Part shown: positions 906-26,851 of the stretch, piece by piece
How the letters are laid out: each line of letters opens with the position of its first letter
How positions within the stretch are numbered: position 1 is the stretch's first letter
Source of the DNA: a virus
DNA: 36,460 nt
IMG/VR virus record: IMGVR_UViG_3300047560_000914
Location: 1-36,460 of that record
Direction: 5' to 3' (one strand)
Program-made: the position numbers and the translations under genes
The notes under the pieces: model-generated
Told to the model about the DNA's origin: nothing
Seen by the model: only the letters and a program-made list of their open reading frames with translations
Databases searched by the model: none

Positions 906-906
906 A

Positions 907-3039: not shown

Positions 3040-3066
3040 CCTTCAGTTTGTTAGTTACATTTGCCG

Positions 3067-3213: not shown

Positions 3214-3219
3214 GTTCCT

Positions 3220-3248: not shown

Positions 3249-3321
3249 GCACTGATTGATAATTTTATTTATCTTTTTCTTTTAAAACTTTGGTTTTAGC
3301 ATTTCTGCTGTGTAAGTGTGT

Positions 3322-3350
3322 ATTGTATGAGTTGTATCTTTAAGTGTCAA
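3322..3350 (-). promoter_or_regulatory. Consensus sigma70-type promoter, distal
   Basis: A second identical pair: TTGACA (3350-3345), 17-bp spacer, TACAAT (3327-3322). It sits immediately after the stop codon of the third PP-loop gene. The predicted start near 3315 would give a transcript carrying the AGGAAC site before the 48-aa ORF. Confidence 0.83.
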
Positions 3351-3354
3351 CACC

Positions 3355-4515
3355 TTAGATGCCCAAATCATACATTTTACTTGTCATTGCTTTGAACCCA
3401 CTAGCTATGTTACTTGGATCTCTTTTCCAAGCATCTGGCCAGCTGCGCCACATTTCTTCTAAACCAACTCTCCACGAATACTTTGCAGGATCATCATCGG
3501 GTAACTTGAAGAACCATTCATCACGCGGTGTAAAAAATACACTGGGCGCTTTTACTTGGAACGGCGCACGTACCCACCATGGGTAAATCAATTCGTGTAC
3601 TTTAGACATAGTTAGCTGTCTTGTCAAGCCCCCATTTTCAAATTTTACTAAACCATGCGGTTCACCAGTTGCATCAGGGTGCCCGGCATGTAGTGTTTTA
3701 ATGAAATTTTTAATAATGTGCCCTTGTTTGATAGCAATCAACGGCGCATCCGGACTCCAGTAAAACAACTCATCAAACTCCCAGGGCCTGTTTTCCATTT
3801 GTTGATAAGGGCTGTGAGCCGTGTCAACAAAGTCAACAAAGTAAAAATAGTAATGGTCTTTAACTTGATGCATCCTAGGTTTGTCAATGCCCTGAATAAA
3901 CCCAACTTTCTTCCCAGTATCAAACATGTTAGTCCACTCTGGTACCGTAAGTTTAATGTCGTTCTTAGATGCATTGTTCGGGTTCATGTACCCATTCATG
4001 CGGTACCCCCAATTGAACTTTGTGTCTTCCTTGCTAAAGTAATCCATTACTAGCTTACTAACATCGATTACACGGTGCTTTAGGTTTGGGTTCTTCTCGC
4101 GGGCTTTTTCGATCAGCGGCATAGCAACGTGGAAGATTTCCCCGTTCATAAAACTTGTGCGATCCTTGGTTGCTTCGTAGTTTACATAGCTAACTACTTC
4201 ATCTAAATGTATGTCGTTTTCTATAAAACTATGAAAAATGTTTAAACTGTCTGCGCCACCGCTGAGCCAAAGTACCAGGTAATCGTATTTCTCACGTAAC
4301 TGTTGCGCCCTGCGTTTGTATAGTTCGGTAATGCTTTCTTGTGGTTCAGTTTTCCAATCAAGCGCACTATATGCATCTTCGTTAAAATTCCAACGAAGTG
4401 GCAAGCCTGTACGTTGATGCTCGTAAATTGTTTCTAGCTTGCTATAAGATCTAAAGTTACCGCATTGATAAAAACCAAACTGATCCTGCCTACTAGATAG
4501 AATTAAAGATTCCAT
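3355..4515 (-). CDS. PP-loop ATPase-like protein, paralogue C
   Basis: 386 aa. The N-terminal half carries a PP-loop pyrophosphatase motif, SGGADS at 85-90, after a beta strand (YLVLWL), as in asparagine synthetase, QueC and other N-type ATP pyrophosphatases that adenylate a substrate. Other blocks shared with the two upstream paralogues are WNFN (42-45), LDWKTEP (52-58), the ELYKRRAQQLREKYD helix, GIDKPR, ELFYWSPD and the C-terminal YDLG. There is no glutaminase domain, so it is not a complete asparagine synthetase. The ATG overlaps the previous stop as TAATG, with AGGA upstream, implying translational coupling. It is last of three tandem copies. The substrate is unknown. Confidence 0.8.
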   Translation of the reverse strand: MESLILSSRQDQFGFYQCGNFRSYSKLETIYEHQRTGLPLRWNFNEDAYSALDWKTEPQESITELYKRRAQQLREKYDYLVLWLSGGADSLNIFHSFIENDIHLDEVVSYVNYEATKDRTSFMNGEIFHVAMPLIEKAREKNPNLKHRVIDVSKLVMDYFSKEDTKFNWGYRMNGYMNPNNASKNDIKLTVPEWTNMFDTGKKVGFIQGIDKPRMHQVKDHYYFYFVDFVDTAHSPYQQMENRPWEFDELFYWSPDAPLIAIKQGHIIKNFIKTLHAGHPDATGEPHGLVKFENGGLTRQLTMSKVHELIYPWWVRAPFQVKAPSVFFTPRDEWFFKLPDDDPAKYSWRVGLEEMWRSWPDAWKRDPSNIASGFKAMTSKMYDLGI

Positions 4516-5663
4516 TATGTTCCTAAATCGTAAATCTTGCTGCTCATTGGTACTAGCCCTTTACTAATATCTTTAGGGTCTTTCTTCCATGAGTCTGGCC
4601 ACTGGCTCCACAAATAATCCAATCCTGTGCGCCATGCGTAACGGGCAGCATCGTTTTCGGGTAATTTGAAAAACCATTCATCACGCTGTGTAAAGATTAA
4701 ACTTGGTGCTTTAGCTTGGTATGGCACAGGGTACCAACCCGGGTAAATCAAACGATGCATAGTGTCAAGTGGAACACCGTACTTTTGATTGTTAATAGTT
4801 ACTTGTACTGTGCTAGCTTTTGCATCAGTCCATAAGTCACTGGCATTTGCCAATTTAATATACTTCTTTAAGACGTGTGATTGTTTAATTGCAATCTTAG
4901 GACTATCAGGACTCCAGTAAAACAATTCATCAAAGTCCCAAGGACGGTTAAGCATCTGTGCTTGTGCTGATACTGCTTGGTCTACCATGTCAACAAATGA
5001 AAAGTAGTAGTGATCCTTAACTTGGTGGATGCGTGGCTTATCAATACCCTGTATAAAGACAACTTTCTTACCAGCGTCAATCATATCACGCCAATGTTTT
5101 TGAGTTAGCTTAATGTTAATTTTGGATGAGTTGTTAGGGTTTAAGTAACCATTCATATGGTACACCCAATCAAACTTACTTTCGCGTTGCGAATAGTTGT
5201 CCATAATTAAAGAGGACAAATCTAGTAATGTGTGCTTTAGCCAGGGCTGCTTTAGTTTAGCTTGCTCAATCTTAGGGATCGATACATTGTAGATCTCCCC
5301 ATTCAAAAAATTAAACTTATCCCCTGTTGCTTCATAATTAACCATGCCCACACACTCATCAATGCGTATGTCATTATTAATAAAACTGTTTAGCACATTA
5401 CTAGAGTCGGCGCCGCCGCTAAACCAAAGCACAACGTAATCATACTTGTCTCGTATTTGCTGTGCTCGTATACGGTAGAGCTCCTCCAGTGTTTCTGTGG
5501 GCTCTACTTTCCAGTCGTAGCTAGAAAAGACTGGCTCATTAAAATTCCATTTAACTCTACCGCCAGTTTTGTTTGCGTTAAGTGCTTCTAACTTGCTGTA
5601 GTACTTACAGTCATTGACTTCGTAGAAGCCAAATTGGTCCATGTTAAAATTTAAAATGTTCAT
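4515..5663 (-). CDS. PP-loop ATPase-like protein, paralogue B
   Basis: 382 aa, clearly the closest relative of the next gene downstream: both share the FSGGADS/LSGGADS loop (82-87 here), VNYEAT, GYxNPNN, GIDKPRxHQVKDHYYF, the RPWxFDELFYWSPD block and the DEWFFKLP block. The first ATG overlaps the end of the upstream paralogue by about 20 bases; an alternative ATG at 5642 (residue 8, MDQFGF) would give no overlap. Known PP-loop enzymes activate a carboxylate or carbonyl with ATP for amidation, thiolation or ring closure; which one applies here cannot be told. Confidence 0.8.
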   Translation of the reverse strand: MNILNFNMDQFGFYEVNDCKYYSKLEALNANKTGGRVKWNFNEPVFSSYDWKVEPTETLEELYRIRAQQIRDKYDYVVLWFSGGADSSNVLNSFINNDIRIDECVGMVNYEATGDKFNFLNGEIYNVSIPKIEQAKLKQPWLKHTLLDLSSLIMDNYSQRESKFDWVYHMNGYLNPNNSSKINIKLTQKHWRDMIDAGKKVVFIQGIDKPRIHQVKDHYYFSFVDMVDQAVSAQAQMLNRPWDFDELFYWSPDSPKIAIKQSHVLKKYIKLANASDLWTDAKASTVQVTINNQKYGVPLDTMHRLIYPGWYPVPYQAKAPSLIFTQRDEWFFKLPENDAARYAWRTGLDYLWSQWPDSWKKDPKDISKGLVPMSSKIYDLGT

Positions 5664-6828
5664 TGATACCAGTACTTATATATTCTGCTGGACCAAGATC
5701 ATAAAAGGGGCTCAAGAATCCAACAAACCCAACAGGTCTGCCTAGCTCAGTGTTGAAGTATTTGAGGTCAATGTTTTTAACTAGGTAAGCTAGACCAGCT
5801 TCCCACCGTCTGTACGCATCTGTGTCTTTAAAGTTAGTGTAGAACCAAAAGTCCATCTCGTTATAGAAACTGTTAGATGGTTTAGATGTTTGGAACGTTG
5901 CAGGATTGTAGTCCGGATAGATTAAAGGCTTTACGACTTGTTCATATGTTGTTCGTTGGGCAACACTATAATTAGGCCATCGTACAAGAAATTGCAGGAA
6001 CTGATTTTGCGGAAGACTAAACCAACTCTTGATGGTATGCGCTTGAGCGAGTACAAGTTCAGGTAAGTCGGGTGTCCAGTAAAAGTACTCGTTTGTGATG
6101 TTAGTGTATTCGTACACAACAGAATTAGAATGATTTGCTTGCAAATCCATAAAGTATGCATACCAGCGCCCGTCCTTAATACACATCTTAGGCTTGTCTA
6201 CTCCGTACAATACGCAAATACTTTTGCCGGTATCTGCATCCCTGCGATGGTCAATTAAACTAATATTGTCATGCTTAAACGCATGTCCAGGCTGAAAGTA
6301 GTCTTTTGTTTTTAATACCCACGACTCATCTGCTTCGCCCTTTAACATATCCTCACTATAGTCATGTATCGTAACTTTGGTCTTAGGATAGTTAGTAGAG
6401 ATCCATTGTAGCAATGGCTTGGCCGCAAACTCCCATTCGCTTAGTGTGTTCTCACATTTAGTATTAAACGGATCGTTGCTTACATTCTTCTCGCCTGTTT
6501 TGGGATAACGAAACACAACTTCATCTAAGTGGATGCCGTTGTGCAAGAAACTATAAATTGCAGTAGTACTGTCTCCCCCACCGCTAGCTTCTACACGAAT
6601 CCAATCATACTTGTCGCGCAGTTGTTGCGCTCTCATACGATACAGTTCTTTTAAAGGAATGTTAGGTGGCGTTGCCCAATCTAACTTAGCGTACACATCT
6701 CGATTAAAGTTCCACTCGGGAAAGATACCTGTGCGGGTAGCTTCTATTAAGGCTTCCACTTTGCCATAACAGACTTTGTCACCTAGTTTGTAGTATCCTA
6801 ACTTAGGATTGTTATCGAGTTTATACAT
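5644..6828 (-). CDS. PP-loop ATPase-like protein, paralogue A (divergent)
   Basis: 394 aa, first and most divergent of the three. It keeps the PP-loop as SGGGDS (82-87), the WNFN and LDWATPP blocks, ELYRMRAQQLRDKYD, GVDKPK, EYFYWTPDLPE, PLIYPDY and the terminal YDLG. Where the other two have VNYEAT it has an unrelated stretch, and the DEWFF block reads DFWFY. These differences suggest a distinct substrate or a heteromeric partner role. The ATG follows tRNA-Arg by only 8 bases and has no clear Shine-Dalgarno site, so the gene is probably co-transcribed with the tRNA. Confidence 0.78.
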   Translation of the reverse strand: MYKLDNNPKLGYYKLGDKVCYGKVEALIEATRTGIFPEWNFNRDVYAKLDWATPPNIPLKELYRMRAQQLRDKYDWIRVEASGGGDSTTAIYSFLHNGIHLDEVVFRYPKTGEKNVSNDPFNTKCENTLSEWEFAAKPLLQWISTNYPKTKVTIHDYSEDMLKGEADESWVLKTKDYFQPGHAFKHDNISLIDHRRDADTGKSICVLYGVDKPKMCIKDGRWYAYFMDLQANHSNSVVYEYTNITNEYFYWTPDLPELVLAQAHTIKSWFSLPQNQFLQFLVRWPNYSVAQRTTYEQVVKPLIYPDYNPATFQTSKPSNSFYNEMDFWFYTNFKDTDAYRRWEAGLAYLVKNIDLKYFNTELGRPVGFVGFLSPFYDLGPAEYISTGINEHFKF

Positions 6829-6835
6829 TTAATTT

Positions 6836-6910
6836 TGGTCCAGCGTGCAGGAATCGAACCCACATTCGCGAGGTAGAAGCTCGCTGTATTATCCATTATA
6901 CTAACGCCAG
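6836..6910 (-). tRNA. tRNA-Arg (TCT)
   Basis: Acceptor CTGGCGT pairs with ACGCTGG (two G-U pairs), discriminator A, encoded CCA. Anticodon stem-loop GCGAG-CTTCTAC-CTCGC is perfect and gives TCT, reading AGA. T loop TTCGATT. It lies between the GGQ protein and the PP-loop genes. Confidence 0.92.
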
Positions 6911-6914
6911 AAAT

Positions 6915-7289
6915 TTATCTAACCGCTTTTGCTCTAGCAACTAGCACATCTTCAATGTTACCCTTAATAATAACATTGGTGTACGAATCTGTCAAGCCAC
7001 TAGCGTGATCCGTTACCCTATTGTCAGGTTCGTGATACGTTCTAATACGTTCAGTGCCTGCTTGGTTACGATCTTTGTCTTTGTGAAAGTGTGCAACTAC
7101 ACGGTTACGGCAAACATTATACGCCGCAGCTTTGTTATCTTCGCGGCTACGACTGTTTGTTCCGTTGGCTTGTATTCCAGTGGGTTCGTGAATACAGCGG
7201 CAACAATTTTGATGCTTGTTGCGATGCTGTCCTCCCTTACCTGTACCGGAGAACCATTCAAAACGGAATTGATCTTCTGTGAGTTTCAT
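6915..7289 (-). CDS. Stand-alone class I release-factor (GGQ) domain protein
   Basis: About 124 aa consisting of the catalytic domain of bacterial RF1/RF2. The motif GTGKGGQHRNKHQN contains the universal GGQ (19-21) that triggers peptidyl-tRNA hydrolysis, and the end carries RIRTYHEPDNRVTDHASGLT, matching the RTYxxPxxRVTDHRxxxT signature of RF1/RF2. The stop-codon recognition domain is missing, as in the rescue factors ArfB and PrfH, but there is no clearly basic ArfB-type tail. Starts at 7307 (ATG) and 7313 (TTG) are also possible; none has a strong Shine-Dalgarno site. It sits between two tRNA genes, fitting a role in translation such as ribosome rescue or release during infection; this role is inferred. 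Confidence 0.82.
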   Translation of the reverse strand: MKLTEDQFRFEWFSGTGKGGQHRNKHQNCCRCIHEPTGIQANGTNSRSREDNKAAAYNVCRNRVVAHFHKDKDRNQAGTERIRTYHEPDNRVTDHASGLTDSYTNVIIKGNIEDVLVARAKAVR

Positions 7290-7322
7290 AACTGTATTTT
7301 GGTGCATTACCAAGATGCTTTG

Positions 7323-7394
7323 TGCGACCTACTGGATTCGAACCAGTCCCGTAAGAATTATGAGTTCTCGGCACTACCTCTATGCTAAAGTCGC
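7323..7394 (-). tRNA. tRNA-Met (CAT)
   Basis: 72-nt cloverleaf: acceptor GCGACTT pairs with AGGTCGC, discriminator A; unlike the other tRNAs here the 3' CCA is not encoded (CAA follows). Anticodon stem-loop GAGAA-CTCATAA-TTCTT gives CAT. T arm ACTGG-TTCGAAT-CCAGT is perfect. CAT could also be an Ile2 tRNA with lysidine. Its first 10 bases overlap the 3' end of the homing endonuclease gene. Confidence 0.88.
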
Positions 7395-7987
7395 TCAAAA
7401 CACCCTTGTCTAATTTGTTTTATTTCTACTTCTTTAATTATACGCAGATTACCTTTAAATTGCGACCACTTGGCTCGATCCCTGTCCGTTTCGTACCCTT
7501 TAACTTCAATGTACATGTCTAAACTTTCTATGTAGAAATCCGGAAAATATGTTCTTTCACCATTCCAAATATACTTGAATCCAGTTGTTGGTCTAATAGG
7601 ATTCAATCCGGCGTTTTTTGCCCATGTATAAAAATCTACTTCCCATTGCCCTTGAAACTTCATGCCGTCGAGCATGATTTGCTTTGTCCTCCCCCTATTA
7701 GATGAGGTATACGATTCTGGATTATTTTCAACTGCTTTTTTCATTGCATCTGACAGATTTTTACGCCTGCTATCATCCCACACTTGTTTCTTACTAGCCT
7801 CACTTAATTTCTTACGAGTTTCATCAGAACAAGTTGCACCGTAACTATATTGATTTGCTCCTTTTTTGCCAAGCATACCGTAAGATGGTTTTACTATAAC
7901 CCCCCCGGGGTTACTCTTACAACGTATTTCGTGCTGTTGGTTTGATCTAAGGCTTTTAGCCGGCTTGTTGCAAAATTTACAAAACAT
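7385..7987 (-). CDS. Free-standing homing endonuclease (zinc finger + NUMOD3 + PD-(D/E)xK-like)
   Basis: 200 aa. The N terminus has a zinc-finger pattern C3-C6-H19-C23. Residues 54-86 hold two NUMOD3-like helices (DETRKKLSEASKK and RRKNLSDAMKKAV), DNA-binding modules common in phage homing endonucleases. The C-terminal domain shows a restriction-type active site: E116, PD at 149-150, then EVK at 161-163. The start is ATG with TAGGAG five bases upstream. That ribosome-binding site is sequestered by an upstream complement and a late promoter lies in the loop between the two arms (see separate features), the arrangement described for T4 I-TevI. The gene ends inside tRNA-Met and begins beside a tRNA remnant, suggesting it inserted into the tRNA cluster. 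Confidence 0.82.
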   Translation of the reverse strand: MFCKFCNKPAKSLRSNQQHEIRCKSNPGGVIVKPSYGMLGKKGANQYSYGATCSDETRKKLSEASKKQVWDDSRRKNLSDAMKKAVENNPESYTSSNRGRTKQIMLDGMKFQGQWEVDFYTWAKNAGLNPIRPTTGFKYIWNGERTYFPDFYIESLDMYIEVKGYETDRDRAKWSQFKGNLRIIKEVEIKQIRQGCFERL

Positions 7988-7990
7988 AAT

Positions 7991-8021
7991 AACTCCTATA
8001 GTTATTTATGCCGTAGGAGTT
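7991..8021 (-). promoter_or_regulatory. RBS-sequestering hairpin of the homing endonuclease
   Basis: On the minus strand AACTCCTA (8021-8014) is perfectly complementary to TAGGAGTT (7998-7991), which contains the Shine-Dalgarno site. The 15-nt loop (8013-7999) contains the late promoter CATAAATA. Early or read-through mRNA would fold and hide the RBS; late mRNA starting inside the loop would lack the 5' arm and be translatable. Confidence 0.8.
8003..8010 (-). promoter_or_regulatory. Late promoter CATAAATA (homing endonuclease)
   Basis: Matches the T4-type late consensus TATAAATA at 7 of 8 positions. The expected start, about 6 nt downstream, falls just before the TAGGAG ribosome-binding site. 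Confidence 0.75.
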
Positions 8022-8059
8022 AAATGCTCTACCAATTAAATGCTAGGAGCCTTTTACAG

Positions 8060-8818
8060 TCAAGTTGGTTTGCGCTCTATGTCACTTTCGTCACATGCGC
8101 TACCATACTGTATTTCCACAATACGACATGGCGTATTATACGGATTATGCAGTCTATGCCAAGCCATAGTTGGTATATGTGTGTTGTTGTGTTCGCTTAA
8201 CTCTATATTGGGCAGCATAAATCCATTTTCTAATTGCTGCTCTACAATACATTGCCCTTCGCTAACGTGCCAGTACTCAGCACGAAATTGATGGCGTTGC
8301 ATACTTAAACTTTTCCCTGGGTTAATTGTTAGTTCTTTAACTTTGGTGCCTGGCACATCATGTAGGACTCGATAGTAACCCCATGGGCGCTCGGTCTTGG
8401 GCGCTTTCCACTCTTGTAGAATCCAGCTGCTACTGTTGGCTTTGTCTTCTCCACCAACACCAAACACAAACTCTACTCCTGTTACTGACATTTCGGGAAT
8501 ATTGTCTTGTGTGCGATCTCCGCCATTTGCAAAGATGATTACATCGTTAGGATATTGTGCTTTAAGATCTTCTAGCAACTTAATGGCACTACCGTCACTG
8601 TCGTTCCAGTAGGTGGTTTGATCAACATACTTGATCTTGCTTACAACAGCATAGCGTTCGTTCCATGGCATAAATGCTGCACCCTTTTTGCGTTCAAGCC
8701 AGGCATCACTGTTTAGGCCAACGATTAGGATATCACCAAGTTGCTTTGCTGCTTTAAGGTAGGCGATGTGCCCACTGTGGATAGGATCAAACCCACCGGT
8801 TGCGATTACAATTTTCAT
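8060..8818 (-). CDS. Nucleotidyltransferase-cupin fusion (RfaE/TagD-like + mannose-6-P isomerase-like)
   Basis: About 252 aa. Residues 1-125 form a cytidylyltransferase fold with the signature GGFDPIHSGH (8-17) and, near the end of the domain, the SSS(W) element, as in HldE/RfaE, TagD and GlyCT. From about 138 a cupin follows with the ManC/PMI type II pattern: ERPWGYY, KVKELTINPGKSLSMQRHQF with the metal-binding His, then IP...HRLHNP and IEIQYG-like VEIQYG. The two activities suggest making or activating a sugar-phosphate nucleotide. The ATG at 8818 overlaps the upstream stop as ATGA; an upstream in-frame start at 8851 is less likely. It follows a methyltransferase gene, fitting surface sugar modification of host or virion, which is inferred. 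Confidence 0.82.
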   Translation of the reverse strand: MKIVIATGGFDPIHSGHIAYLKAAKQLGDILIVGLNSDAWLERKKGAAFMPWNERYAVVSKIKYVDQTTYWNDSDGSAIKLLEDLKAQYPNDVIIFANGGDRTQDNIPEMSVTGVEFVFGVGGEDKANSSSWILQEWKAPKTERPWGYYRVLHDVPGTKVKELTINPGKSLSMQRHQFRAEYWHVSEGQCIVEQQLENGFMLPNIELSEHNNTHIPTMAWHRLHNPYNTPCRIVEIQYGSACDESDIERKPT

Positions 8819-9564
8819 GTCTTTGCTTGATAGAAGTCTTTGTCTAACCAAGAGTAAACAATATCTTCTTGGCGAATGTGTCCGTGTTTGTTTAAACTCG
8901 ATACTGTGCTGTCGTTTAATAAACCCATGTCAGCTAAATCGTGCAAACTAGTTTTAGTCGGGTCCATGGGCTCTGCACTCTTGTATACTGCTAAGTTAAT
9001 CCAGTTACTTTGAATGTTTTTGTAAAAGTACGCATCACGGCAATCAAACCCATTCACGGCCAGCATGTAAATTAAACTTGGGATTGTAAAGTTGAAGTAA
9101 CTATAATCATGAACTTTAAATTGTAACTTGTTATACACGTAATTAATATTCTGCGGTAAACTCATTACTAACATACCGTCCATGTTCATTTGACTATTCC
9201 ACTGTGCTAGCGTCTGGATTGGACTAATAGAATACTGAAACGAATCATGGCTCCAAATCAAATCAGCACGTTCGGGGATTTCCATACTATGGAAGTCTCG
9301 CTCAAGCCAGCGAATGTTTGGGATCAATTTAACATCGGGTTCAACCTTAGATAGGTCACGATCAATTGCATACACACGATAGTTACGTTGTTCCGGTGGG
9401 TCATCACGTGTTTCTAATGTTGCCCACCATTGTGCATCTAGACCGGCGCCACACCCAACATCGTAAATTACAGTTAAACTATCAAGGAAACTATCATAGC
9501 CATACAACAAGTTTAGTATCTCTAAACTATGCTCATGACTATAATAAGGATTACTAAAGCTCAT
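8815..9564 (-). CDS. Class I SAM-dependent methyltransferase
   Basis: 249 aa. SAM-binding motif I is clear: VIYDVGCGAGLDAQWWA at about 32-48, followed by YAIDRD (motif II acidic residue) and RADLIWSHDSFQYS (motif IV). The C-terminal half may give substrate specificity. It is coupled by ATGA overlaps both to the UvsY-like gene upstream and to the nucleotidyltransferase-cupin gene downstream. The substrate is not evident; a sugar or small molecule is likelier than DNA because no DNA target-recognition or NPPY motif is seen. Confidence 0.82.
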   Translation of the reverse strand: MSFSNPYYSHEHSLEILNLLYGYDSFLDSLTVIYDVGCGAGLDAQWWATLETRDDPPEQRNYRVYAIDRDLSKVEPDVKLIPNIRWLERDFHSMEIPERADLIWSHDSFQYSISPIQTLAQWNSQMNMDGMLVMSLPQNINYVYNKLQFKVHDYSYFNFTIPSLIYMLAVNGFDCRDAYFYKNIQSNWINLAVYKSAEPMDPTKTSLHDLADMGLLNDSTVSSLNKHGHIRQEDIVYSWLDKDFYQAKT

Positions 9565-10013
9565 AGTGTGATATCTTCCATGCCTGCGGTGCGTAGTCTA
9601 GCTACGTGCCCTAGCATAAAATTCTTGCTCTCAATGCCTTTAAGTATACCAAGCCATTTGTTACGCAACAACGCAACTTCGTTAATGATAGTTTCGAAGT
9701 CGATAACTTCATCTTCGGCTTCTGCATACTTTTCTGCATCTCGACTAGTTAACGCTCGTGCATACGATTCTAAGTACTTCTTATAATGCTTCTGCTTAAT
9801 CTTTCTTAGTTGAATACCTAAGTAATTTAACACAGCTTCAATTTCTTGCAATTGATTAAAGCGATACTCAGTAACACCTGGCAAGTCAGATACGTTACGT
9901 TCCAAGTTACCTTTGATGCTACATTCGCGACGAGCGTTTAGCAGTTCATTTTCGTAATGAACAATAAAATTAGGAATTTCACCTAGGTCGCTAACTACTC
10001 GGTTATACCACAT
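9561..10013 (-). CDS. uvsY: UvsY-like recombination mediator
   Basis: 150 aa, all-helical, charged. The C-terminal third (LRNKWLGILKGIESKNFMLG followed by HVARLRTAG) resembles the UvsY pattern in which an aromatic-hydrophobic helix is followed by a basic IKSRxFxI-like segment. UvsY helps UvsX load on gp32-coated ssDNA. Length is close to T4 UvsY (137 aa). The assignment is supported by sharing an operon with uvsX and by gp32 upstream, but similarity by eye is modest. Confidence 0.55.
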   Translation of the reverse strand: MWYNRVVSDLGEIPNFIVHYENELLNARRECSIKGNLERNVSDLPGVTEYRFNQLQEIEAVLNYLGIQLRKIKQKHYKKYLESYARALTSRDAEKYAEAEDEVIDFETIINEVALLRNKWLGILKGIESKNFMLGHVARLRTAGMEDITL

Positions 10014-10015
10014 GC

Positions 10016-10246
10016 TTAGTCTTCGTAACGGTCGTCGTCGTATTCTTCTTCGAATTCGCTAGCGTATTCTTTAAACGCTCTGCCTAACGCAGCGTCGGTG
10101 CCACCAAACTCTTTTAGTTCATCGTCGCTAAGTAAGTCAACCATTACACTCATCAAGTTATCCGCAGCTTCTTGTCTATCCTTTTGAGGGATATATTGTT
10201 TTAAAATTGTATAGACTTCGCTAACTACATCAATTTCAACGCTCAT
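10016..10246 (-). CDS. Small acidic hypothetical protein
   Basis: 76 aa, strongly acidic, ending in a run of Glu and Asp (EFEEEYDDDRYED). Short acidic proteins next to recombination genes occur in T4-like phages but I cannot name this one. Its start overlaps the end of the upstream ORF and its stop lies 2 bases before the UvsY-like gene, so it is translationally coupled in the operon. Confidence 0.65.
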   Translation of the reverse strand: MSVEIDVVSEVYTILKQYIPQKDRQEAADNLMSVMVDLLSDDELKEFGGTDAALGRAFKEYASEFEEEYDDDRYED

Positions 10247-10553
10247 TCTTACCTTCTTTCTTTGCCACTATTAAATCATCTGTACACCCTGTACAGTGTT
10301 GTTGATAGCATGTTGTTGGGTGTTGCAACAACTGCCACTTGCTATTTAGATTACCTAAGTAATCATTTAAGCATTGTCCGCTATACACTTCGTTATCAGT
10401 ATTGATGTACAATCTAGAGTACCCTGCCTCACAAGACCAACCGGTCCAATGATCTAGCCCTTGGTTGTGTAACCAATTGCCATCAATACGATAGTGCCTA
10501 GTGTTGTCTAGCACTACTTCGCAATTATAATACTCATGGGGTTGGAATTTCAA
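10236..10553 (-). CDS. SPASM-like C-terminal part of radical SAM protein, in +1 frame
   Basis: 105 codons opened by a TTG, rich in Cys (GWSCEAG, YSGQCLND, TTCYQQHCTGC), the pattern of the auxiliary iron-sulfur (SPASM/twitch) domain that normally follows a radical SAM barrel. The first plausible residues continue directly from the end of the upstream radical SAM ORF, which it overlaps by 20 bases in the +1 frame, and no Shine-Dalgarno site precedes the TTG. This is probably the tail of the upstream gene, separated by a frameshift (programmed, mutational or a sequencing error) rather than an independent gene. Confidence 0.6.
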   Translation of the reverse strand: MKFQPHEYYNCEVVLDNTRHYRIDGNWLHNQGLDHWTGWSCEAGYSRLYINTDNEVYSGQCLNDYLGNLNSKWQLLQHPTTCYQQHCTGCTDDLIVAKKEGKNER

Positions 10554-11166
10554 GATTTAGTTTACCTTTCATAATCGGAACTTCCCTAGTCTTATAACTG
10601 TATTCGATTTCGTTAACGTTATGACTTATGTTGTTCTGTTTAAGGATATCAACATACGCCGCGATGCGGTCTGTGTTCCAGAACTCATTCATTACGTTAA
10701 CATGTATAAATTTATCTTTCGCAATAGTCTCGCGTAATTTAATTACGGTATTGAAGAACTTCTTTTCGTCAATGTGCTCACTATGCGTACTAAACGAAAT
10801 GTTATCAACTACTTCAAACATTTTCAAATAATAGTTGTATGTAGCACTTCCGTTAGTGGTTAACAAAATTTGTTTAATCTTCGAGCTGTAATTCTCACGC
10901 AACCATTTAACAAACGGGTAGAACGCTTTATTGCCTGTTACTTCTCCGCCAGTAAAACTAATCTTATACTGTAAATTTCTACCCTTTGATTGCTCGTAAA
11001 TTGATAACCAGTTTGCTTTTAACTCATCGAGGGATTTGTGTTTACTTGTACTATCGTGCCACTGCGGGCCGCAGTACATACAATCGTAATTGCAACGGCG
11101 ACCTAATTCCCACGTAATCGAAAAAGTATTTTCAACCGGGAATATCTCTATTACTTTTGGATCCAT
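10534..11166 (-). CDS. Radical SAM protein, core domain (second of pair)
   Basis: 210 aa. The [4Fe-4S]-binding motif CNYDCMYC (25-32) is canonical CxxxCxxC, and the SAM-binding GGE motif FTGGEVTG is at 71-78. The protein stops after the partial TIM barrel, and its missing auxiliary cluster domain is encoded in the +1 frame immediately downstream. It overlaps the preceding radical SAM gene by 16 bases. The family generates a 5'-deoxyadenosyl radical; members with a SPASM domain often modify peptides. The substrate is unknown. Confidence 0.8.
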   Translation of the reverse strand: MDPKVIEIFPVENTFSITWELGRRCNYDCMYCGPQWHDSTSKHKSLDELKANWLSIYEQSKGRNLQYKISFTGGEVTGNKAFYPFVKWLRENYSSKIKQILLTTNGSATYNYYLKMFEVVDNISFSTHSEHIDEKKFFNTVIKLRETIAKDKFIHVNVMNEFWNTDRIAAYVDILKQNNISHNVNEIEYSYKTREVPIMKGKLNLEIPTP

Positions 11167-12299
11167 AGTTTAAACGATTCAGGGTAAATGTCTAACGACA
11201 AGTTGCGGCGCTTTGCAAATTCTAAAATAAATGATTTGCATTGTGCAATATGTTCTTCTGTGTGCGTTGCACTTACTGCTTGGTGTATTTTGTCAGTGTG
11301 ATATTTAAACGTTGTTTCTAGAATTTTGTCTCTGCTTGCAGGGTCTAATAGACTAGGCGCAAGATATAATGGATCAATTAATATGTTAAAGTAATCTTCC
11401 TCTGTACCGAACTCATCCTGAAACTCTTTAAATCCATGCACTGTTAAGTTGCATATTGTATTTGCAAATTTGTACTTTATACCGTACTTACGTATAGTGT
11501 CTAAATTAGTAAGAAGATTGCTATAACTGTTGCCATAACGGTTGAATTCGTACAATTCACCTGTGTTTTCTGCACTAATAACTAGTGTAGTTATGTCTGC
11601 TGGCAATTGTTGCACAATTCTATCAAACCGCTTTGGATTGACGCCTAAGCCTGTTGTAATTTCAATTCGTTCTGCTTCTGTTAAACGAACGATGTCTTCG
11701 AGACCGTTATACAGGAATGGTTCACCGCCCATAAACTTTAACACCTGCAACTTACGCAAGCTTGCGACTTCGTCCAGTATTAGTTTGTAGCGTGGGCTGT
11801 TTTTAATTGCAGCCTGACCTATTTTAATAATAGCGCGGTCATCGATTGTGATGTTAAACCTGTCGTCACCTGCATAGTCCGGTAGGTAAGTACCATTGTC
11901 CGAAATATCTCGAAGCCAAGCGGTGCTATAACGCTTAGTGCAGTACGAACAAGTCATATTGCAATCACTGCCTAATATAACTTCAACAACTTCAGGGGTG
12001 GATTCTAATTGTGTAAACTGCCGATCACTTGCAGCTTGGTGTATTGTTCTACGACTCGGGATACCTTTTGATTCAGGAATCCAACAACCTCGTGAGCAAC
12101 TAGAAACAGGCTTGTTGTCTAGCATATCCTGACGCTCTTGTAAGATTGTAGGATTGTTAAACAACTTGCCGTTGTTGGTTTTAAGCCAAGTAGTATCAAT
12201 TGGTTGTTGGTCTGCTTTACAGCAGGAAGCTAACAGCCGCCTTTCGGGATCAACTGTTAGCCACCACCACTTTTGACTACAATAAAAGTTATTCTGCAT
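11151..12299 (-). CDS. Radical SAM protein with N-terminal twitch-like Cys domain
   Basis: About 382 aa. An N-terminal Cys-rich region (FYCSQKWWWL, LLASCCKAD, SSCSRGCW) precedes the core motif CNMTCSYC (113-120) and GGEP (191-194), so the auxiliary-cluster-like part comes before the barrel, the reverse of the usual SPASM order. The ATG at 12299 overlaps the end of uvsX (GGATGCAGAATAA); an upstream start at 12323 would overlap more. It is translated in the recombination operon just after uvsX. Likely functions are peptide or protein side-chain modification or an unknown metabolite step; no substrate can be named. Confidence 0.8.
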   Translation of the reverse strand: MQNNFYCSQKWWWLTVDPERRLLASCCKADQQPIDTTWLKTNNGKLFNNPTILQERQDMLDNKPVSSCSRGCWIPESKGIPSRRTIHQAASDRQFTQLESTPEVVEVILGSDCNMTCSYCTKRYSTAWLRDISDNGTYLPDYAGDDRFNITIDDRAIIKIGQAAIKNSPRYKLILDEVASLRKLQVLKFMGGEPFLYNGLEDIVRLTEAERIEITTGLGVNPKRFDRIVQQLPADITTLVISAENTGELYEFNRYGNSYSNLLTNLDTIRKYGIKYKFANTICNLTVHGFKEFQDEFGTEEDYFNILIDPLYLAPSLLDPASRDKILETTFKYHTDKIHQAVSATHTEEHIAQCKSFILEFAKRRNLSLDIYPESFKLWIQK

Positions 12300-13368
12300 C
12301 CTCAACCACAGGGGCTTCTTCAAGCGAAGTGTTCTTGTCGAACTTGTGTGGATTAGCAGTAATGTCAGCCATAATTTTATCTAGACTACCGTCTTCGTTA
12401 CGTTCCCATGCTTTGCGGAATTGTTTAATAATTTCGCCGTCAGTTGTAACATACTTTAGACTGTTGCCTTCTTTAGTAAGTAGGCCTTTTGCTTCGCATA
12501 AATCAACCATGCCAGAGTATGGGTTCATACCTGTTTCGTATGGAATCTTAACTTGAACACTTTCAAAAGGTTTAGCATAACGTGTCTTCATGATCTTACA
12601 TGCTGCACGAATACCTTTAACTTCTGAAATCTTGTTACCGTCTTCGTCTTCCTTCAACTTCAACTTACGCATAGCCACAACAATAGAGCTAGCATAGATA
12701 AAGCCTTGACCACCGGAGATCTTGTCGTCAGGATCAAACATATCCTGCGATGCGTATGTATGGTTAGTTGCTACTAGTCCAATGTTTAAATCGCCAAACA
12801 TGTTCACACAGTTACGAACAAGTGCTGTTAGTGCTTTAGGCTTACGACCCAAGTCACCTTTAAGGTCACCTGCTTGGAATTGGTTAACGTCAGTTGGCGT
12901 TAACATCATACCCAGCGAGTCAAGCACAAACAATACCTTGGGACGTTGGTCTTCGGGCAGTGCTTTATATTCTTTAACAAAGTCATTAATTAACTTAGCA
13001 ACGTCATCAATCATTGCCACGTTAAGTTTAAGTAGTTTCTCTTCTGAGGTGTCAACCCCAAGTGCATGTAGCCATTGCTCGTCAAGAGCGTTTTCAGTAT
13101 CAACAAGAATAACGTAGATACCTTGTTCCTGTGCATTTTTAATAATGTTACCGGAACAAATATACGACTTACCTGCACCAGATTCTCCAGCAAAAACTGT
13201 AACCTTGCCCATTGGGATGCCCTTATTGAAATCACCCGAAATGAGGTAGTTAAGCGCAAAGTTGTTGGTGCTGATCCAAGTATCCGGATCACGAAAGCCG
13301 ATACTAAGACCTTCAATACTTTTTGTAATTGTTTTACGAAATTTACTTACGTCAAATGGTTTAGCCAT
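12289..13368 (-). CDS. uvsX: UvsX RecA-like recombinase
   Basis: 359 aa. Walker A GESGAGKS at 61-68 and Walker B VLFVLDS at 145-151 are in place, followed by the L2/ATPase region GLVATNHTYASQDMF. T4 UvsX is 391 aa. It catalyses homologous strand exchange for recombination-dependent replication and repair together with gp32 and UvsY. The start is preceded by AAGGAAA. It follows gp32 after a tetraloop hairpin and heads an operon with radical SAM genes and the UvsY-like gene. Confidence 0.95.
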   Translation of the reverse strand: MAKPFDVSKFRKTITKSIEGLSIGFRDPDTWISTNNFALNYLISGDFNKGIPMGKVTVFAGESGAGKSYICSGNIIKNAQEQGIYVILVDTENALDEQWLHALGVDTSEEKLLKLNVAMIDDVAKLINDFVKEYKALPEDQRPKVLFVLDSLGMMLTPTDVNQFQAGDLKGDLGRKPKALTALVRNCVNMFGDLNIGLVATNHTYASQDMFDPDDKISGGQGFIYASSIVVAMRKLKLKEDEDGNKISEVKGIRAACKIMKTRYAKPFESVQVKIPYETGMNPYSGMVDLCEAKGLLTKEGNSLKYVTTDGEIIKQFRKAWERNEDGSLDKIMADITANPHKFDKNTSLEEAPVVEDAE

Positions 13369-22025: not shown

Positions 22026-22538
22026 TTACTTCTTTTCGTCTTTGCTTTGGGCTAAGATTTGAGCTAATAATGCATTGCGATCTAACACCATACCCTTACC
22101 ATCTACTGCATCTTCTTCCTCGTCTTTTGCTTTACCTGCATCCTTTTTAATCTGCTGGTCTAGCCTAGCTTTTTGCAACTGCAAGCTAATCATACGTAGC
22201 TTCTTGTCCATTTTAGCTGTTTTAGCTGTAATGCTGTGTCCCAGTAATTGGCTAGCTGTTTGGAAAATCACGCCGCCAAAACGTGGATCGACGTTCATCC
22301 CTAAGTCTAGTAAATCCTCGGCTTTGTCCTTGGCTAACTTTGCTAGCTCATCTAGTTCAGCATCCGTTGTTACATCTAAGTCTCTGATCATTGGCAATGC
22401 TGCGTCAATTTTATCAATTGCCTCATCAACTTCGGTGATAATATCTTTATTATCCGCAATAACTTTTTGCACATCAATATCTGCTGCTCCGTCGCCAAGC
22501 GGCGGTAAGTTAAAAGTTTCTTCTAATTTTTTTGTCAT
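22026..22538 (-). CDS. 16: gp16-like terminase small subunit
   Basis: 170 aa, almost entirely helical. The arrangement of an N-terminal acidic region, a central helix pair around AEDLLDLGMNVDPRFGGVIFQTASQLL and a following long charged coiled helix (KMDKKLRMISLQLQKARLDQQ) matches T4 gp16 (164 aa), whose core is HPRAxEVxxxLxxxMxxxNxxLLxLxKxxK. gp16 forms a ring that recognises concatemeric DNA and regulates gp17. It overlaps the upstream hydrolase gene by 4 bases. The assignment rests on size, helical pattern and location. Confidence 0.65.
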   Translation of the reverse strand: MTKKLEETFNLPPLGDGAADIDVQKVIADNKDIITEVDEAIDKIDAALPMIRDLDVTTDAELDELAKLAKDKAEDLLDLGMNVDPRFGGVIFQTASQLLGHSITAKTAKMDKKLRMISLQLQKARLDQQIKKDAGKAKDEEEDAVDGKGMVLDRNALLAQILAQSKDEKK

Positions 22539-23371
22539 GGTATTTCTCTCGGGAAGTCATTTCCCCTGATCCAGTCACAAATGGCTGCAACTACTCTTAT
22601 TTGTCGACGTCTAAAGTAATGACCGTCCGACGAAGTACTGGAGTTTGTAACTAGTATAGAGTCTGTTTTGGCCATTTCTTCTTTGGCTTTATCAAACACT
22701 TCTGTTTTATGGTGTGCAATTAGCACCGGAACTTTGGCTTGACTTACATCGTATTTGTCTAGTCTAGCCCCTTGATGATATTCGTCCCACCCCTCTAATA
22801 TATGAAATGGCCCACTAGTTAAAACTACTTTTTCAACTTTAGTTTCTAGTAAGCTAATACGTGATGCTTCAATGCATCCGTAACTCATTCCGTGCCATGC
22901 AATCTTTGCATGTGGGAAACGGGCAGCAACACAATCAATTGCTTGCAAACACTCGCGCAGTCTATCGGGAGTATTGCGATAAGAACTCGGAAGAGACGAA
23001 TTTATTCTAAAATATGTAGGTACATCCAATATTGCTATAGCAACATTATTTGATAACCATTTGTCCATCCACTCCCAAGTAAATTGCAGCTTACATTCTT
23101 CTGCAATTTCCCCTTGCTCATTGTAATGAAATATGTGTGGGTTAGTGCCGCCGTATGTGTATATTACCACATAGTCTGGATTTTTAACTCTGCTCAAATA
23201 GTAGATTGCTGTTCTATGGACAGGGTATTCCATAAACTCTAGCTCATTGATTACTAGATTATTAGTCGCTTCTTTCCTGTTCTTCTCTTTAACTTTTTCA
23301 AAAATAAAGAGTTGACGGGGAGAATACGCCAATGCATTGCTTGTAAGGAATCTCTCTTGTCCAACTTTCAT
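22535..23371 (-). CDS. Alpha/beta hydrolase
   Basis: About 278 aa. The nucleophile elbow GMSYG (161-165, Ser163) follows a beta strand (AKIAWH), and a later DGHYF supplies a likely catalytic His with Asp. There is no signal peptide. The ATG at 23371 lies 5 nt after GTTAAATA, a late-type box; a GTG start at 23398 would lie inside the upstream terminator and is rejected. It follows the binding-protein genes and precedes gp16. An esterase or peptidase-like role on a host substrate is plausible; the substrate is unknown. Confidence 0.78.
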   Translation of the reverse strand: MKVGQERFLTSNALAYSPRQLFIFEKVKEKNRKEATNNLVINELEFMEYPVHRTAIYYLSRVKNPDYVVIYTYGGTNPHIFHYNEQGEIAEECKLQFTWEWMDKWLSNNVAIAILDVPTYFRINSSLPSSYRNTPDRLRECLQAIDCVAARFPHAKIAWHGMSYGCIEASRISLLETKVEKVVLTSGPFHILEGWDEYHQGARLDKYDVSQAKVPVLIAHHKTEVFDKAKEEMAKTDSILVTNSSTSSDGHYFRRRQIRVVAAICDWIRGNDFPREIP

Positions 23372-23376
23372 AGTTG

Positions 23377-23384
23377 TATTTAAC
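23377..23384 (-). promoter_or_regulatory. Late promoter-like GTTAAATA, 5 nt before ATG
   Basis: GTTAAATA, then CAACT, then the hydrolase ATG. No Shine-Dalgarno site; predicted late mRNA would begin at the start codon. Confidence 0.5.
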
Positions 23385-23389
23385 AAAGG

Positions 23390-23411
23390 AAAAGGCACCG
23401 AAGTGCCTTTT
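23390..23411 (-). terminator. UUCG-tetraloop intrinsic terminator after the TRAP-like gene
   Basis: Minus strand: AAAAGGCAC-TTCG-GTGCCTTTT, a perfect 9-bp stem with the extra-stable C(UUCG)G loop ending in Ts. It would also work on the plus strand, where the loop is CGAA and six Ts follow. Confidence 0.85.
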
Positions 23412-23427: not shown

Positions 23428-24369
23428 TTAAGCCTTTTGGATGCTTTCAACTAGTCCAGCTTGGAAGTAGTCAGCATACATGTCGTATACTTGACCAACA
23501 ACTTCTTGGAACTTAACTAGCTCTTTGTCGTCCATACGAACAACTTCAACACCTTGCGCTTCGCATTCAGCTAAAATGTTAGGAATGTCAGCAACGCTTG
23601 TTGTACGCTCAGTTAAGGCAGCTTCTGCGGCTGCTTGGCTGAATACGGCTTGATCGTGCATATCTAAACCAGCAAAGAAGTCTTTGTTAGTAATGATACT
23701 TGTTAAGAACAAGCTGTGAGCTGTGTCGTTAACTACATCAAAGCTCTTGTGTTGATCCAATGGGAAAACACGAACGTATGTAGATTCGCCAGCTTCAATG
23801 ATGCCTTGATCGGCTGCGGCATTCATTTCTTCTAGAGCAATACCGTCAAAAGGTTGTGCGCCTAGTAGTTTGAATGTGTCAACTGCAACTGGGCTACGGC
23901 TTGTACGAACCTTCTTGCCTTGCCATGCTTCGACTGTATCGGCACGGAAGTTAGCAGGAACAATACGGAAACCGCCTGAATATGTGTAGCTCATAGCGTG
24001 AATGTTGCTGTTGTTGCTTACTGTGTTTAGAAGACTACGACCAATGTCGCCATCTAGTACACGAGTTGCGTGATCGTGGTCCTTAAATAGGAACGGTAGA
24101 TCAAGAGCGTGTAGGTCCCTGTTGTAATCAGCCAACCATGTTGTATAGATGTGGCTCATTTCAATAGCACCAGAGTTAATTAGATCCATTAGATCATTCT
24201 TAGTAACACGGACACCATTGTTGTACTTGTTAGAATAGTCTGTTAGGCTTAGAACTTCGATGAAGTACTTGCCTTTAGCTTTAGCGTTAACTTTAGCTGC
24301 AAAGTCTTCAGCTACTTTCAAGAACAAACCGATAGGTTCGTGCGCGATTACCCACTTAATGTGTTTCAT
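23428..24369 (-). CDS. TRAP-type (DctP-like) solute-binding protein without signal peptide
   Basis: 313 aa. The middle carries the DctP-family hallmark GKKVRTSRSPVAVDTFKLLGAQPFDGI (Arg in RTSRSP binds the carboxylate ligand in this family), followed by NAAADQGIIEAGESTY. Known members are periplasmic receptors delivering C4-dicarboxylates, sialic acid or related acids to DctQM membrane proteins. This one begins MKHIKWVIAHEP with no hydrophobic leader, whereas the two neighbouring binding proteins have clear signal peptides. It therefore may be cytoplasmic and have been repurposed, or its true start was lost. No DctQ or DctM is in the window. AAGGAAA precedes the ATG. Confidence 0.85.
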   Translation of the reverse strand: MKHIKWVIAHEPIGLFLKVAEDFAAKVNAKAKGKYFIEVLSLTDYSNKYNNGVRVTKNDLMDLINSGAIEMSHIYTTWLADYNRDLHALDLPFLFKDHDHATRVLDGDIGRSLLNTVSNNSNIHAMSYTYSGGFRIVPANFRADTVEAWQGKKVRTSRSPVAVDTFKLLGAQPFDGIALEEMNAAADQGIIEAGESTYVRVFPLDQHKSFDVVNDTAHSLFLTSIITNKDFFAGLDMHDQAVFSQAAAEAALTERTTSVADIPNILAECEAQGVEVVRMDDKELVKFQEVVGQVYDMYADYFQAGLVESIQKA

Positions 24370-24527
24370 TTAAAATTTCCTTTTGCAAAAGATTTTTATG
24401 TAATGCTTGTGGGAGTGCCCACTTACGGTTTTCGGCGTTATACGTGTATCACAGTAGTAAAGGGGTTTGTACTACCCCAAGCGTCGATTTTCATTTCCGA
24501 CGTCGGCATTGCACCGGCGTTGCAATT
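24370..24527 (-). promoter_or_regulatory. Structured leader between two binding-protein genes
   Basis: 158 bases without an ORF. Minus strand pieces: GGGGT-AGTACAA-ACCCC (24478-24462) and, overlapping it, GTAGTA with TACTAC (24475-24470 with 24459-24454), which cannot form together; then GTGGG-CACT-CCCAC near 24415-24402 and TTTTGCAAAA just before the AAGGAAA ribosome site. It could be an attenuator or riboswitch-like leader, though I match no known class. Confidence 0.4.
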
Positions 24528-25460
24528 TTATTTAGTCCGAGCTTCGTCAATTTTGTCCTTATACTTGGTTGTCAAATAATGCATCTGACTAACTCGTTTG
24601 TTAAAGAACTCTTCTACTGACATCGGTGGGTTAAAGAATACTGGAGGGTTCATGTCAGAACTATCCAAAATCGCTTTCTCGCCAATTGACTCTTGTGCTG
24701 ACTCTAGGATCTTTGAAATTTCTTTTCGGCGTTGCTCGTTCATTGCTTTATTTGCAACTGTAGAAATAAAAACGCTAGGGACGTTAAACCCTTGCTCTGC
24801 TAAAGTTTTTACGTTTGGCATTGTACGATTTCGTTTAGAGCAATCAATTCCCAATACTTGTAATTTAGGATTTTTGTCTTTAAACATTTGGTAACTTGCT
24901 ACACGCTCAAGTACCATGTTAGGCCCGTTGTTGCCCACCATTGCTACTAACCCATCAAAGTTTGATTTGTAAACAACATACCTAAGTTTGAACTTGTATT
25001 TTTCACTTAGGGCAATTGCTACCATGTGCGCCACGTTGCCAAATCCTGTTCCGCCAACAACCAGCTCATCAATCCCACGCAGGCTATCTGTACCTAGTTT
25101 AGTGTCACCAACGTTAGTGATAACTGCCCAGCAAGCATCCCCTTGGGTTGACACCGGTATGTAATCCGCTTCGTTAATGTAGCCTTGTTTGGCATTTTCA
25201 ACAAATGCTGCTGCAACAGTGGATAAGCGATTTGATGGGCTAGCATCCATTGCTTTAAGTGCAAGTACGCCATTGGCACCTGGCTTAAACTCAGGCACAA
25301 ACTCGTACTTAGTTTGCATTTTATTAGCATTTTCTAGAGTACGCAAATACACTGAGGTGTTAGACTGTGTTGGCGACGAGCCAATCTGAACAGTAATAAG
25401 CTCTTTGGCGCTAACCAAAGAGCTCACTAATACTAACATTGTTGCTAGTATATGTTTCAT
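24528..25460 (-). CDS. TctC/Bug-family solute-binding protein
   Basis: 310 aa. A Sec signal peptide (MKHILATMLVLVSSLVSA, cleavage after residue 18) directs it to the periplasm. The family signatures are KPGANGVLALKAM and GGTGFGNVAHMVAIAL, and the C terminus ends with the usual helix. TctC/Bug proteins bind carboxylates such as citrate, tricarballylate or amino acids for tripartite tricarboxylate transporters. No TctA/B gene is present here, so it would supply a host transporter or scavenge solutes. Translation is coupled to the upstream paralogue (1 base between stop and ATG). Confidence 0.88.
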   Translation of the reverse strand: MKHILATMLVLVSSLVSAKELITVQIGSSPTQSNTSVYLRTLENANKMQTKYEFVPEFKPGANGVLALKAMDASPSNRLSTVAAAFVENAKQGYINEADYIPVSTQGDACWAVITNVGDTKLGTDSLRGIDELVVGGTGFGNVAHMVAIALSEKYKFKLRYVVYKSNFDGLVAMVGNNGPNMVLERVASYQMFKDKNPKLQVLGIDCSKRNRTMPNVKTLAEQGFNVPSVFISTVANKAMNEQRRKEISKILESAQESIGEKAILDSSDMNPPVFFNPPMSVEEFFNKRVSQMHYLTTKYKDKIDEARTK

Positions 25461-25461
25461 G

Positions 25462-26367
25462 TTAGTTTACCTTAACTTGGCTTGCAAGCTTTTTCCAGTA
25501 GTTAGTATGGAACTCAAAGAACTTGTCTAGCCCAGTAACTGGAACCGACTGTGGCTCACAGTAATCAACTGCGTATGCTGCACGTACTGATTCAGTCTTT
25601 GCTGCTTTAGCTAAGATTGCATGAATTTCTTTACGCTGGTCTTCGCTTACTGTTGTTGGGAGTAACATATGGTGGCCAACATTCATGTCAGCAAAGCTCT
25701 TGTCAAATCCTTGTTTAACTAGTGGCGTGTAACCGTTAATAACTTTAGTACCAGTAATACCAAGAACTGTTACTTTACGGTCACTGTTAGCATTTTCCTT
25801 GCTCCATTGTTCTGCTTCAGAGATAAAGCCAATGTGCAAGTCTGTTTGACCCGATACCATGCTTAACATAGAATCGTTTGTAGACTTAAACGGAACAATG
25901 TTTAACTGTGGATATTTCTTTTGCAATTCAATTGCAGCCAAGTGAGTAGTAACACCCAAACCACTAATACCAACGCTTGCATTTGCAGGAACGTCTTTAA
26001 CTGACTTGTACTTGGTACTTGTTACAGCCATTGGTGCCATACAGTGAACATACTGTTCTTTGAATTTGCTTAGATCATAGCTTTCATTTGGGTACACAAC
26101 CGGACGAACAAAGAACGCTGTACTGTGTGCTAAAATGCTGTTTGGGGTAGCAAGTACGTGATTGGATGCAATAGCACCACCTGCGCCTGGCTTTGTGTCA
26201 AATACAAAATTGTACTTGTCTTGAATCTTGTTTGCTTCGTTTGCAATAGTACGATGATAATTAGCTACCGAGTCGCCCGGTCCCCAAGCATAAAAGATTG
26301 TAATATTTTCTTTGGCTGTTGCAGCCAAAGCGAATGTAGCCATAAGAATGGCAATAAGTTTCTTCAT
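25462..26367 (-). CDS. TctC/Bug-family solute-binding protein
   Basis: About 301 aa. Signal peptide MKKLIAILMATFALAATA then KENITI. Bug signatures include DTKPGAGGAIASNHVL near 57-73 and VGISGLGVTTHLAAIEL in the ligand loop. It is only distantly similar to the next gene, so they are not a recent duplication. Start chosen at 26367, which has GGAGATTCTC upstream; the TTG at 26379 lies inside that Shine-Dalgarno region. First gene of the binding-protein cassette, following the gp4 terminator. Confidence 0.88.
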   Translation of the reverse strand: MKKLIAILMATFALAATAKENITIFYAWGPGDSVANYHRTIANEANKIQDKYNFVFDTKPGAGGAIASNHVLATPNSILAHSTAFFVRPVVYPNESYDLSKFKEQYVHCMAPMAVTSTKYKSVKDVPANASVGISGLGVTTHLAAIELQKKYPQLNIVPFKSTNDSMLSMVSGQTDLHIGFISEAEQWSKENANSDRKVTVLGITGTKVINGYTPLVKQGFDKSFADMNVGHHMLLPTTVSEDQRKEIHAILAKAAKTESVRAAYAVDYCEPQSVPVTGLDKFFEFHTNYWKKLASQVKVN

Positions 26368-26406
26368 GAGAATCTCCAAAAATAGTATTTTATACTTTTA
26401 GAAAAC

Positions 26407-26427
26407 AAAAAGCAAATTATTTTTTGC
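26407..26427 (-). terminator. Weak intrinsic terminator after gene 4
   Basis: Minus strand: GCAAA-AAATAA-TTTGC followed by TTTTT; the loop contains the gene 4 stop codon. The stem is short (5 bp). Confidence 0.5.
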
Positions 26428-26851
26428 CTTGATGGAAAATTTCATTTTCGGTAATAATCCGAAATTTAAGTCCTTGGGACTTGCACCATGCCTTTGCAGC
26501 TTCCCATTTTGCTGCATTAAGGATAGCTGCGGCTTGTGCTCGTGGGCTACGGCCTGCCGCTTCTAAAGTAGTTTCTTTAGTAGGTTTAACTTCAATCACT
26601 TCGGCATGCTTTTGTCCGGTAGCATCAGTATAAACAATTAAGAAGTCCGGAACATAAATGGTATTGCGCCCAGTAAATGGATTGCGATAGTTAACATGTA
26701 TTGCTTCACTGGCCCATTGTAATATGTTTGGATTGTTGTCACAGAACGTCATAAACGTGTGTTCCCACCCCGAACGGTATGTTGGAGTTTTGTTACCCAC
26801 ATATTTCTCTGGGTTCTTAATTTGATACTTGCCGTTGGCGTACTTGCTCAT
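26417..26851 (-). CDS. 4: gp4-like head-completion nuclease
   Basis: 144 aa. The TnsA/PD-(D/E)xK-like active site is visible: E30 in YRSGWE, PD at 68-69 (IYVPDF) and EVK at 87-89 (VIEVKP), together with the family N terminus GKYQIKNPEKYVGN and TFMTFCDNNPNILQWASE. T4 gp4 (also called 50/65 region head completion) trims or seals packaged DNA before tail joining. Its ATG overlaps the preceding stop (ATGA). Confidence 0.88.
   Translation of the reverse strand: MSKYANGKYQIKNPEKYVGNKTPTYRSGWEHTFMTFCDNNPNILQWASEAIHVNYRNPFTGRNTIYVPDFLIVYTDATGQKHAEVIEVKPTKETTLEAAGRSPRAQAAAILNAAKWEAAKAWCKSQGLKFRIITENEIFHQGKK

Follow-up and report, generated by a model that had tools for sequence, protein, structure and literature searches.

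Genomic context and status as phage cargo

The stretch analyzed here, referred to as the window, comprises all 36,460 nucleotides of the viral record IMGVR_UViG_3300047560_000914, which is itself only a fragment. As the first-pass annotation had reported, it contains three genes for solute-binding proteins, one DctP-like and two Bug/TctC-like, and all three open reading frames are intact on the minus strand. The cassette and its surroundings are as follows:

22026-22538, minus strand: gene at the downstream border of the slot; match to phrog_16202 (1.3e-12), for which no function is given.
22535-23398, minus strand: alpha/beta-hydrolase-like protein, an optional slot member; GMSYG corresponding to GxSxG, invariant H260.
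23428-24369, minus strand: signal-less protein with DctP/TRAP-receptor fold, predicted cytosolic; 313 amino acids; PF03480, E 2.3e-39.
24528-25460, minus strand: Bug2; 310 amino acids; PF03401, E 1.9e-7; Sec signal peptide MKHILATMLVLVSSLVSA-K...
25462-26367, minus strand: Bug1; Sec signal peptide MKKLIAILMATFALAATA-K...; TctC, E 3e-4; a 33-sequence profile matches TTT/Bug structures.
26417-26851, minus strand: gp4-like head-closure protein with a TnsA-like nuclease fold, the upstream border of the slot; phrog_218, E 4e-42; PF08722, 1.7e-21.

For Bug1, the open reading frame from TTG spans 25462-26379; the ATG preceded by a GGAG site gives the coordinates listed. The cassette had been placed between gp4 and gp16. 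The gp4 assignment is borne out by the PHROG match; the neighboring gene, on the far side of the hydrolase-like gene, is probably a gp16-like small terminase. The cassette had also been described as devoid of membrane components, and indeed neither DctM nor TctA was found in the 36 kb record. The hydrolase-like protein gave no family match. Its homologues in L002, L032, and L079 share invariant G170, S172, G174, and H260, and its gene occupies the same slot in L147.

Scans of viral contigs returned 109 DctP stretches, 4 Bug2 loci, and 19 Bug1 loci. In a gp4-centered scan, gp4 directly abutted the homologue of the 22026-22538 gene in about 60 related T4-like contigs, which thus represent the empty site. 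The slot was filled in at least 8 other contigs with subsets of PP-loop, Bug, DctP, and hydrolase genes. Specifically, L146, L147, L148, and L149 carry a PP-loop gene together with Bug and/or DctP, with or without the hydrolase; L163, L166, and L170 carry a PP-loop gene (L163 runs off the contig), and further combinations were found in L002, L054, L056, L065, and L080. The cassette is real phage cargo and occupies a variable, swappable position bordered by gp4 and the following virion gene. Since the same slot and gene types recur in independent contigs, and omega values lie between 0.04 and 0.10, this observation is more than chance.

A host contaminant or a chimeric join at 22535 or 26400, the danger raised by the first-pass annotation, might be suspected because the Pfam families concerned are cellular transporter families. 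It was ruled out by the empty sites and by identical junctions that recur across independent contigs; moreover, phage genes flank the cassette on both sides and its nearest relatives sit in viral contigs, so that we regard the chance of such an artifact as negligible.

The location among virion genes, and the proximity of DctP to fibre-like genes in L005-like contigs, would fit DctP and/or the Bug proteins being virion or surface proteins that serve tail adsorption or surface modification. However, most relatives have an empty slot, and the cassette is therefore not needed for assembly. The neighbors of DctP are highly varied and include enzymes, and the signal peptides of the Bug proteins would export them from the cytosol, where virions are assembled. 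A virion role is thus considered very unlikely.

The T4 late promoter TATAAATA was not found in the window; upstream of some late genes there are CATAAATA-like boxes. A promoter search for Bug1 revealed only TATAAAATA, no more than expected by chance. Among the isolate phages in INPHARED, neither the Bug proteins nor the hydrolase had a match, and the weak matches to DctP (21-31% identity) came from two Salmonella whole-genome-shotgun records and otherwise from short records lacking annotation.

Exported Bug proteins and permeases

Bug2 scored above the Pfam cutoff for TctC. Bug1 scored below it and belongs to the family through a profile built from both Bug types (33 phage proteins), which matched 7ndr (6.5e-35) and BugD 2f5x (6.5e-31). 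Classic Sec leaders were recognized in about 50 phage Bug proteins by sequence inspection and hydrophobicity, no dedicated predictor being used; the maximal N-terminal hydrophobicity averaged 2.58 for the Bugs versus 1.21 for DctP. The first-pass annotation was right that, within the cassette, only the two Bugs keep Sec signal peptides, a contrast weightier than was realized then.

With the Bug/TctC receptors of TTT transporters (BugD 2f5x, 7ndr, and the terephthalate-binding protein 8hka), the window proteins share the profile match, the Sec signal, and a KPGAGG-type motif. They differ in forming a phage-specific lineage and in that TctA accompanies them in only 2 of 47 related phage records. 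Bug1 is under strong purifying selection, as compared with its L080 counterpart (omega 0.042). Its best identities were 25-32% in 200 genomes of the Burkholderiales, the order of a Giesbergeria genome, versus 45-94% among phages, and no recent host donor of Bug1 was present among these 200 genomes. A hint at a betaproteobacterial host, drawn earlier from the expansion of Bug proteins in that group, is therefore weak, all the more as the nearest bacterial relatives of DctP include Bdellovibrionota.

Permease genes were found in a few related phage records. The two TctA loci (L031, 3808-5940; L225, 568-2733) lie in records with terminase matches, and directly after each TctA gene comes a Bug-like gene with a signal peptide, while no TctB is obvious. 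DctM was also detected in 2 of the 47 records. L046 (G024, 1251-8412; also L043 and L045) encodes a DctQ-like protein of 165 amino acids, a DctM of 464 amino acids, and a signal-bearing DctP of 376 amino acids. A signal-less DctP gene flanks this complete-looking TRAP gene set on either side, a ring-hydroxylating oxygenase-like gene comes next, and the contig carries a T4-like terminase. Such TctA and TRAP genes extend the known gene cargo of phages; they indicate that some phages invest in carboxylate-type uptake, which supports an uptake role for the Bug proteins.

A TRAP receptor fold without an export signal

The DctP-like protein matched PF03480 with 135.9 bits against a cutoff of 23.4. 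Its AlphaFold model (pLDDT 96.3) superimposed on 4xeq_B with a Z-score of 36.3 and an rmsd of 1.8 Å over 297 residues. The complete fold is thus shared with the TRAP receptors DctP/SiaP (PF03480; 4xeq, 4nq8, 7bbr), and the pocket motifs align as well. R155 coincides with the ligand-binding arginine of the K-I-R motif in TRAP structures, presumably the position of R147 in SiaP, and is kept in 38 of 41 phage members; R135, E195, R200, and H218 are invariant (41/41). These conserved pocket residues suggest a carboxylate as the ligand. An omega of 0.093 shows strong purifying selection and rules out a decaying gene. The phage proteins are set apart from known TRAP receptors by an identity of only about 20%, by Y198 and R200 throughout the clade, by the lack of DctM in most records, and by the lack of a signal peptide.

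TRAP solute-binding proteins carry an export signal, being periplasmic or lipid-anchored, and have DctQ/DctM partners nearby; the window protein lacks the signal, and its 36 kb fragment has no DctM. An in-frame TAA directly precedes its ATG, so that a signal peptide is impossible. A missed upstream start yielding a signal peptide was ruled out for the window and likewise for 34 of 43 non-redundant phage homologues. Of these 43, 38 show a site resembling a ribosome-binding site; open stretches with hydrophobic residues lie upstream of DctP in L047 and L078. All phage DctPs begin with ...(K/R)WV(I/L)AHEP without a hydrophobic leader, and a Sec leader was absent from 94 phage copies.

In a tree of 76 sequences, one clade (support 99/94) united all 43 phage rows with 8 rows from bacterial metagenome-assembled genomes (MAGs), seven of which were labeled signal-less. 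The eighth, L105, was labeled signal-bearing by the script due only to an extended start call; its internal start yields MNVVKKIRWVLAHEP. Bdellovibrionota proteins with a signal peptide lie immediately outside the clade. Bdellovibrionota are not common carriers (3 of 144 genomes). The tree, which has a midpoint root and several long branches, is most simply explained by one loss of export, an inference rather than a demonstration.

Lacking a signal peptide, DctP has no standard route to a periplasmic TRAP permease, and as the signal is missing clade-wide, the protein should act inside the cell. Judged from these sequences, the phage DctP family is predicted to be cytosolic and seems to function within the infected cell. 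Binding proteins encoded by phages are commonly interpreted as enhancing uptake, and the first-pass annotation proposed that the cassette boosts the uptake of organic acids through host permeases. For the Bugs this proposal is supported by their Sec signals and by the two phage records with TctA beside a Bug-like gene; for DctP it is not supported. That all three proteins feed host TRAP and TTT permeases would be consistent with those Bug features and with L043 and L046, where DctQ-like, DctM, and signal-bearing DctP genes occur beside signal-less ones. However, no phage member of the signal-less family has a signal peptide, alternative starts are mostly unavailable, and the presence of signal-bearing and signal-less DctPs together in L046 suggests that the latter do something else. 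We therefore consider uptake by all three proteins unlikely.

Linkage of DctP to PP-loop proteins

Three further genes in the window, arranged in tandem, encode PP-loop proteins of one family (A3), members of which adjoin Bug or DctP genes in other phages:

3355-4515, minus strand: PP-loop protein with SGGADS motif.
4515-5663, minus strand: PP-loop protein with SGGADS motif.
5644-6828, minus strand: PP-loop protein with SGGGDS motif; 77% identical to the PP-loop protein adjoining Bug in L097.

Genes of this SGGxDS type encode about 340-480 amino acids. The motif S-G-G-x-D-S is invariant and places the proteins in the PP-loop ATP pyrophosphatase group (AsnB/GMPS superfamily), with weak fold matches. 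None of the three gave a Pfam, PHROG, or PADLOC match that would assign it to a named enzyme family such as AsnB, GMPS, or QueC, and the PDB matches obtained were weak. For the 5644-6828 protein (model pLDDT 87), carbapenam synthetase and GMP synthase were the top matches, both with a TM-score below 0.35. Many members of the PP-loop superfamily adenylate a carboxylate or comparable group and thereby activate it.

Of the 43 DctP genes, 22 had a PP-loop gene no more than two genes away, and 29 had one no more than five genes away. Among all genes within two positions of DctP, 24 of 167 were PP-loop genes, versus 3 of 729 in DctP-free gp4 loci. Counted by record, PP-loop genes occurred in 24 of 30 DctP-carrying records and in 3 of 22 DctP-free T4-like records (p 3e-6), and for records of at least 70 kb in 19 of 21 versus 3 of 9 (p 0.003); these p-values are indicative, since the record sets differ in lineage. 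The controls without DctP are exclusively T4-like and for the most part shorter. PP-loop genes adjoin DctP also in the bacterial MAG contigs L105 and L110. Against a linked function counts that the PP-loop genes of the window lie about 17 kb from DctP. Additionally, six of the 30 records with DctP show no PP-loop gene (several of these six are fragments), and some large DctP-free T4-like records do have them.

Other recurrent neighbors of DctP are DUF2061 proteins (14/43), a 252-amino-acid protein paired with one type of PP-loop protein, and radical SAM proteins. Several bacterial loci instead combine signal-less DctP with an MFS transporter and an unassigned small protein. In L108, L109, and L123 (and L104), all MAG loci, an MFS transporter, a protein of about 200 amino acids, and a signal-less DctP follow in a row; the small protein appeared 2OG dioxygenase-like by eye and had no Pfam match.

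A ligand-binding fold that is under purifying selection in the cytosol, and that occurs in a variable slot of many unrelated phages, could also act as a sponge removing a host signal or immune ligand, similar to anti-CBASS and anti-Thoeris sponges. The sponge folds known to us are, however, unrelated to the DctP fold. DctP had no match in PADLOC, a library of defence rather than counter-defence proteins; the defence search as a whole yielded a single insignificant match. Furthermore, the PP-loop linkage points toward metabolism, and the nearest relatives of DctP are bacterial genes, some of them beside transporters. A sponge function appears quite improbable.

Proposed function and relation to known systems

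We favor, with moderate confidence, a module acting in two compartments, in which the Bugs serve uptake and the cytosolic DctP handles a ligand together with PP-loop enzymes. The phage would produce the two Bugs, Sec would export them, and in the periplasm they would capture an organic acid or comparable ligand to supply a TTT permease, usually the host's. DctP would stay in the cytosol, bind a carboxylate-bearing small molecule, and either hand it to phage enzymes or withhold it from them, most likely the accompanying PP-loop ATP-pyrophosphatase-type proteins. The wider proposal, that phages have co-opted a TRAP receptor to handle ligands in the cytosol together with PP-loop enzymes, in a recurrent small-molecule module paired with exported Bugs that import the precursor, is put forward as a tentative and rather doubtful one. 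A large phage family retains both fold and pocket of TRAP receptors, lacks the export signal clade-wide, and is expected to act intracellularly; the PP-loop linkage makes its role testable via ligand and reaction.

Cyanophage PstS is not known to come with a permease of its own. Like the cassette proteins, PstS of T4-like cyanophages is a phage-encoded solute-binding protein (PMC6359870). The ligand class differs, and PstS is a periplasmic ABC receptor, whereas the window DctP is predicted to be cytosolic and is linked to PP-loop genes. TRAP receptor-like open reading frames have been described in the Ralstonia phages RP12 and RP31 (PMC5468394), and database entries for uncultured Caudovirales phages bear the same annotations as the cassette (TRAP receptor DctP/TeaA and PBP2_Bug_TTT proteins). 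In the open-licence literature searched, we found neither a comparable cassette nor an analysis of signal loss, slot, or PP-loop linkage of phage TRAP receptors, nor, as far as searched, a description of an intracellular role for TRAP receptors. Phage-encoded solute-binding proteins are thus of a known kind, and the cytosolic TRAP-receptor family with its linkage appears new within that literature.

Additional observations

Fourteen tRNA genes lie at 157-7394 of the window. The region 8060-12323 encodes a cytidylyltransferase-cupin fusion, a methyltransferase, and two radical SAM proteins, a possible nucleotide-sugar or modification cluster. Radical SAM genes were also seen in L005 (2322-5711) and L012 (2658-3026) near proteins, fibre-like or small, that contain Cys-rich stretches (NCNCNC; CACNACNSACNCNCGNC), possibly a modified virion protein. 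In G003, the contig of L004, the terminase match at 173547-175169 reads through 10 stop codons (1 TGA, 5 TAG, and 4 TAA), which may reflect an insertion, an intron, or recoding.
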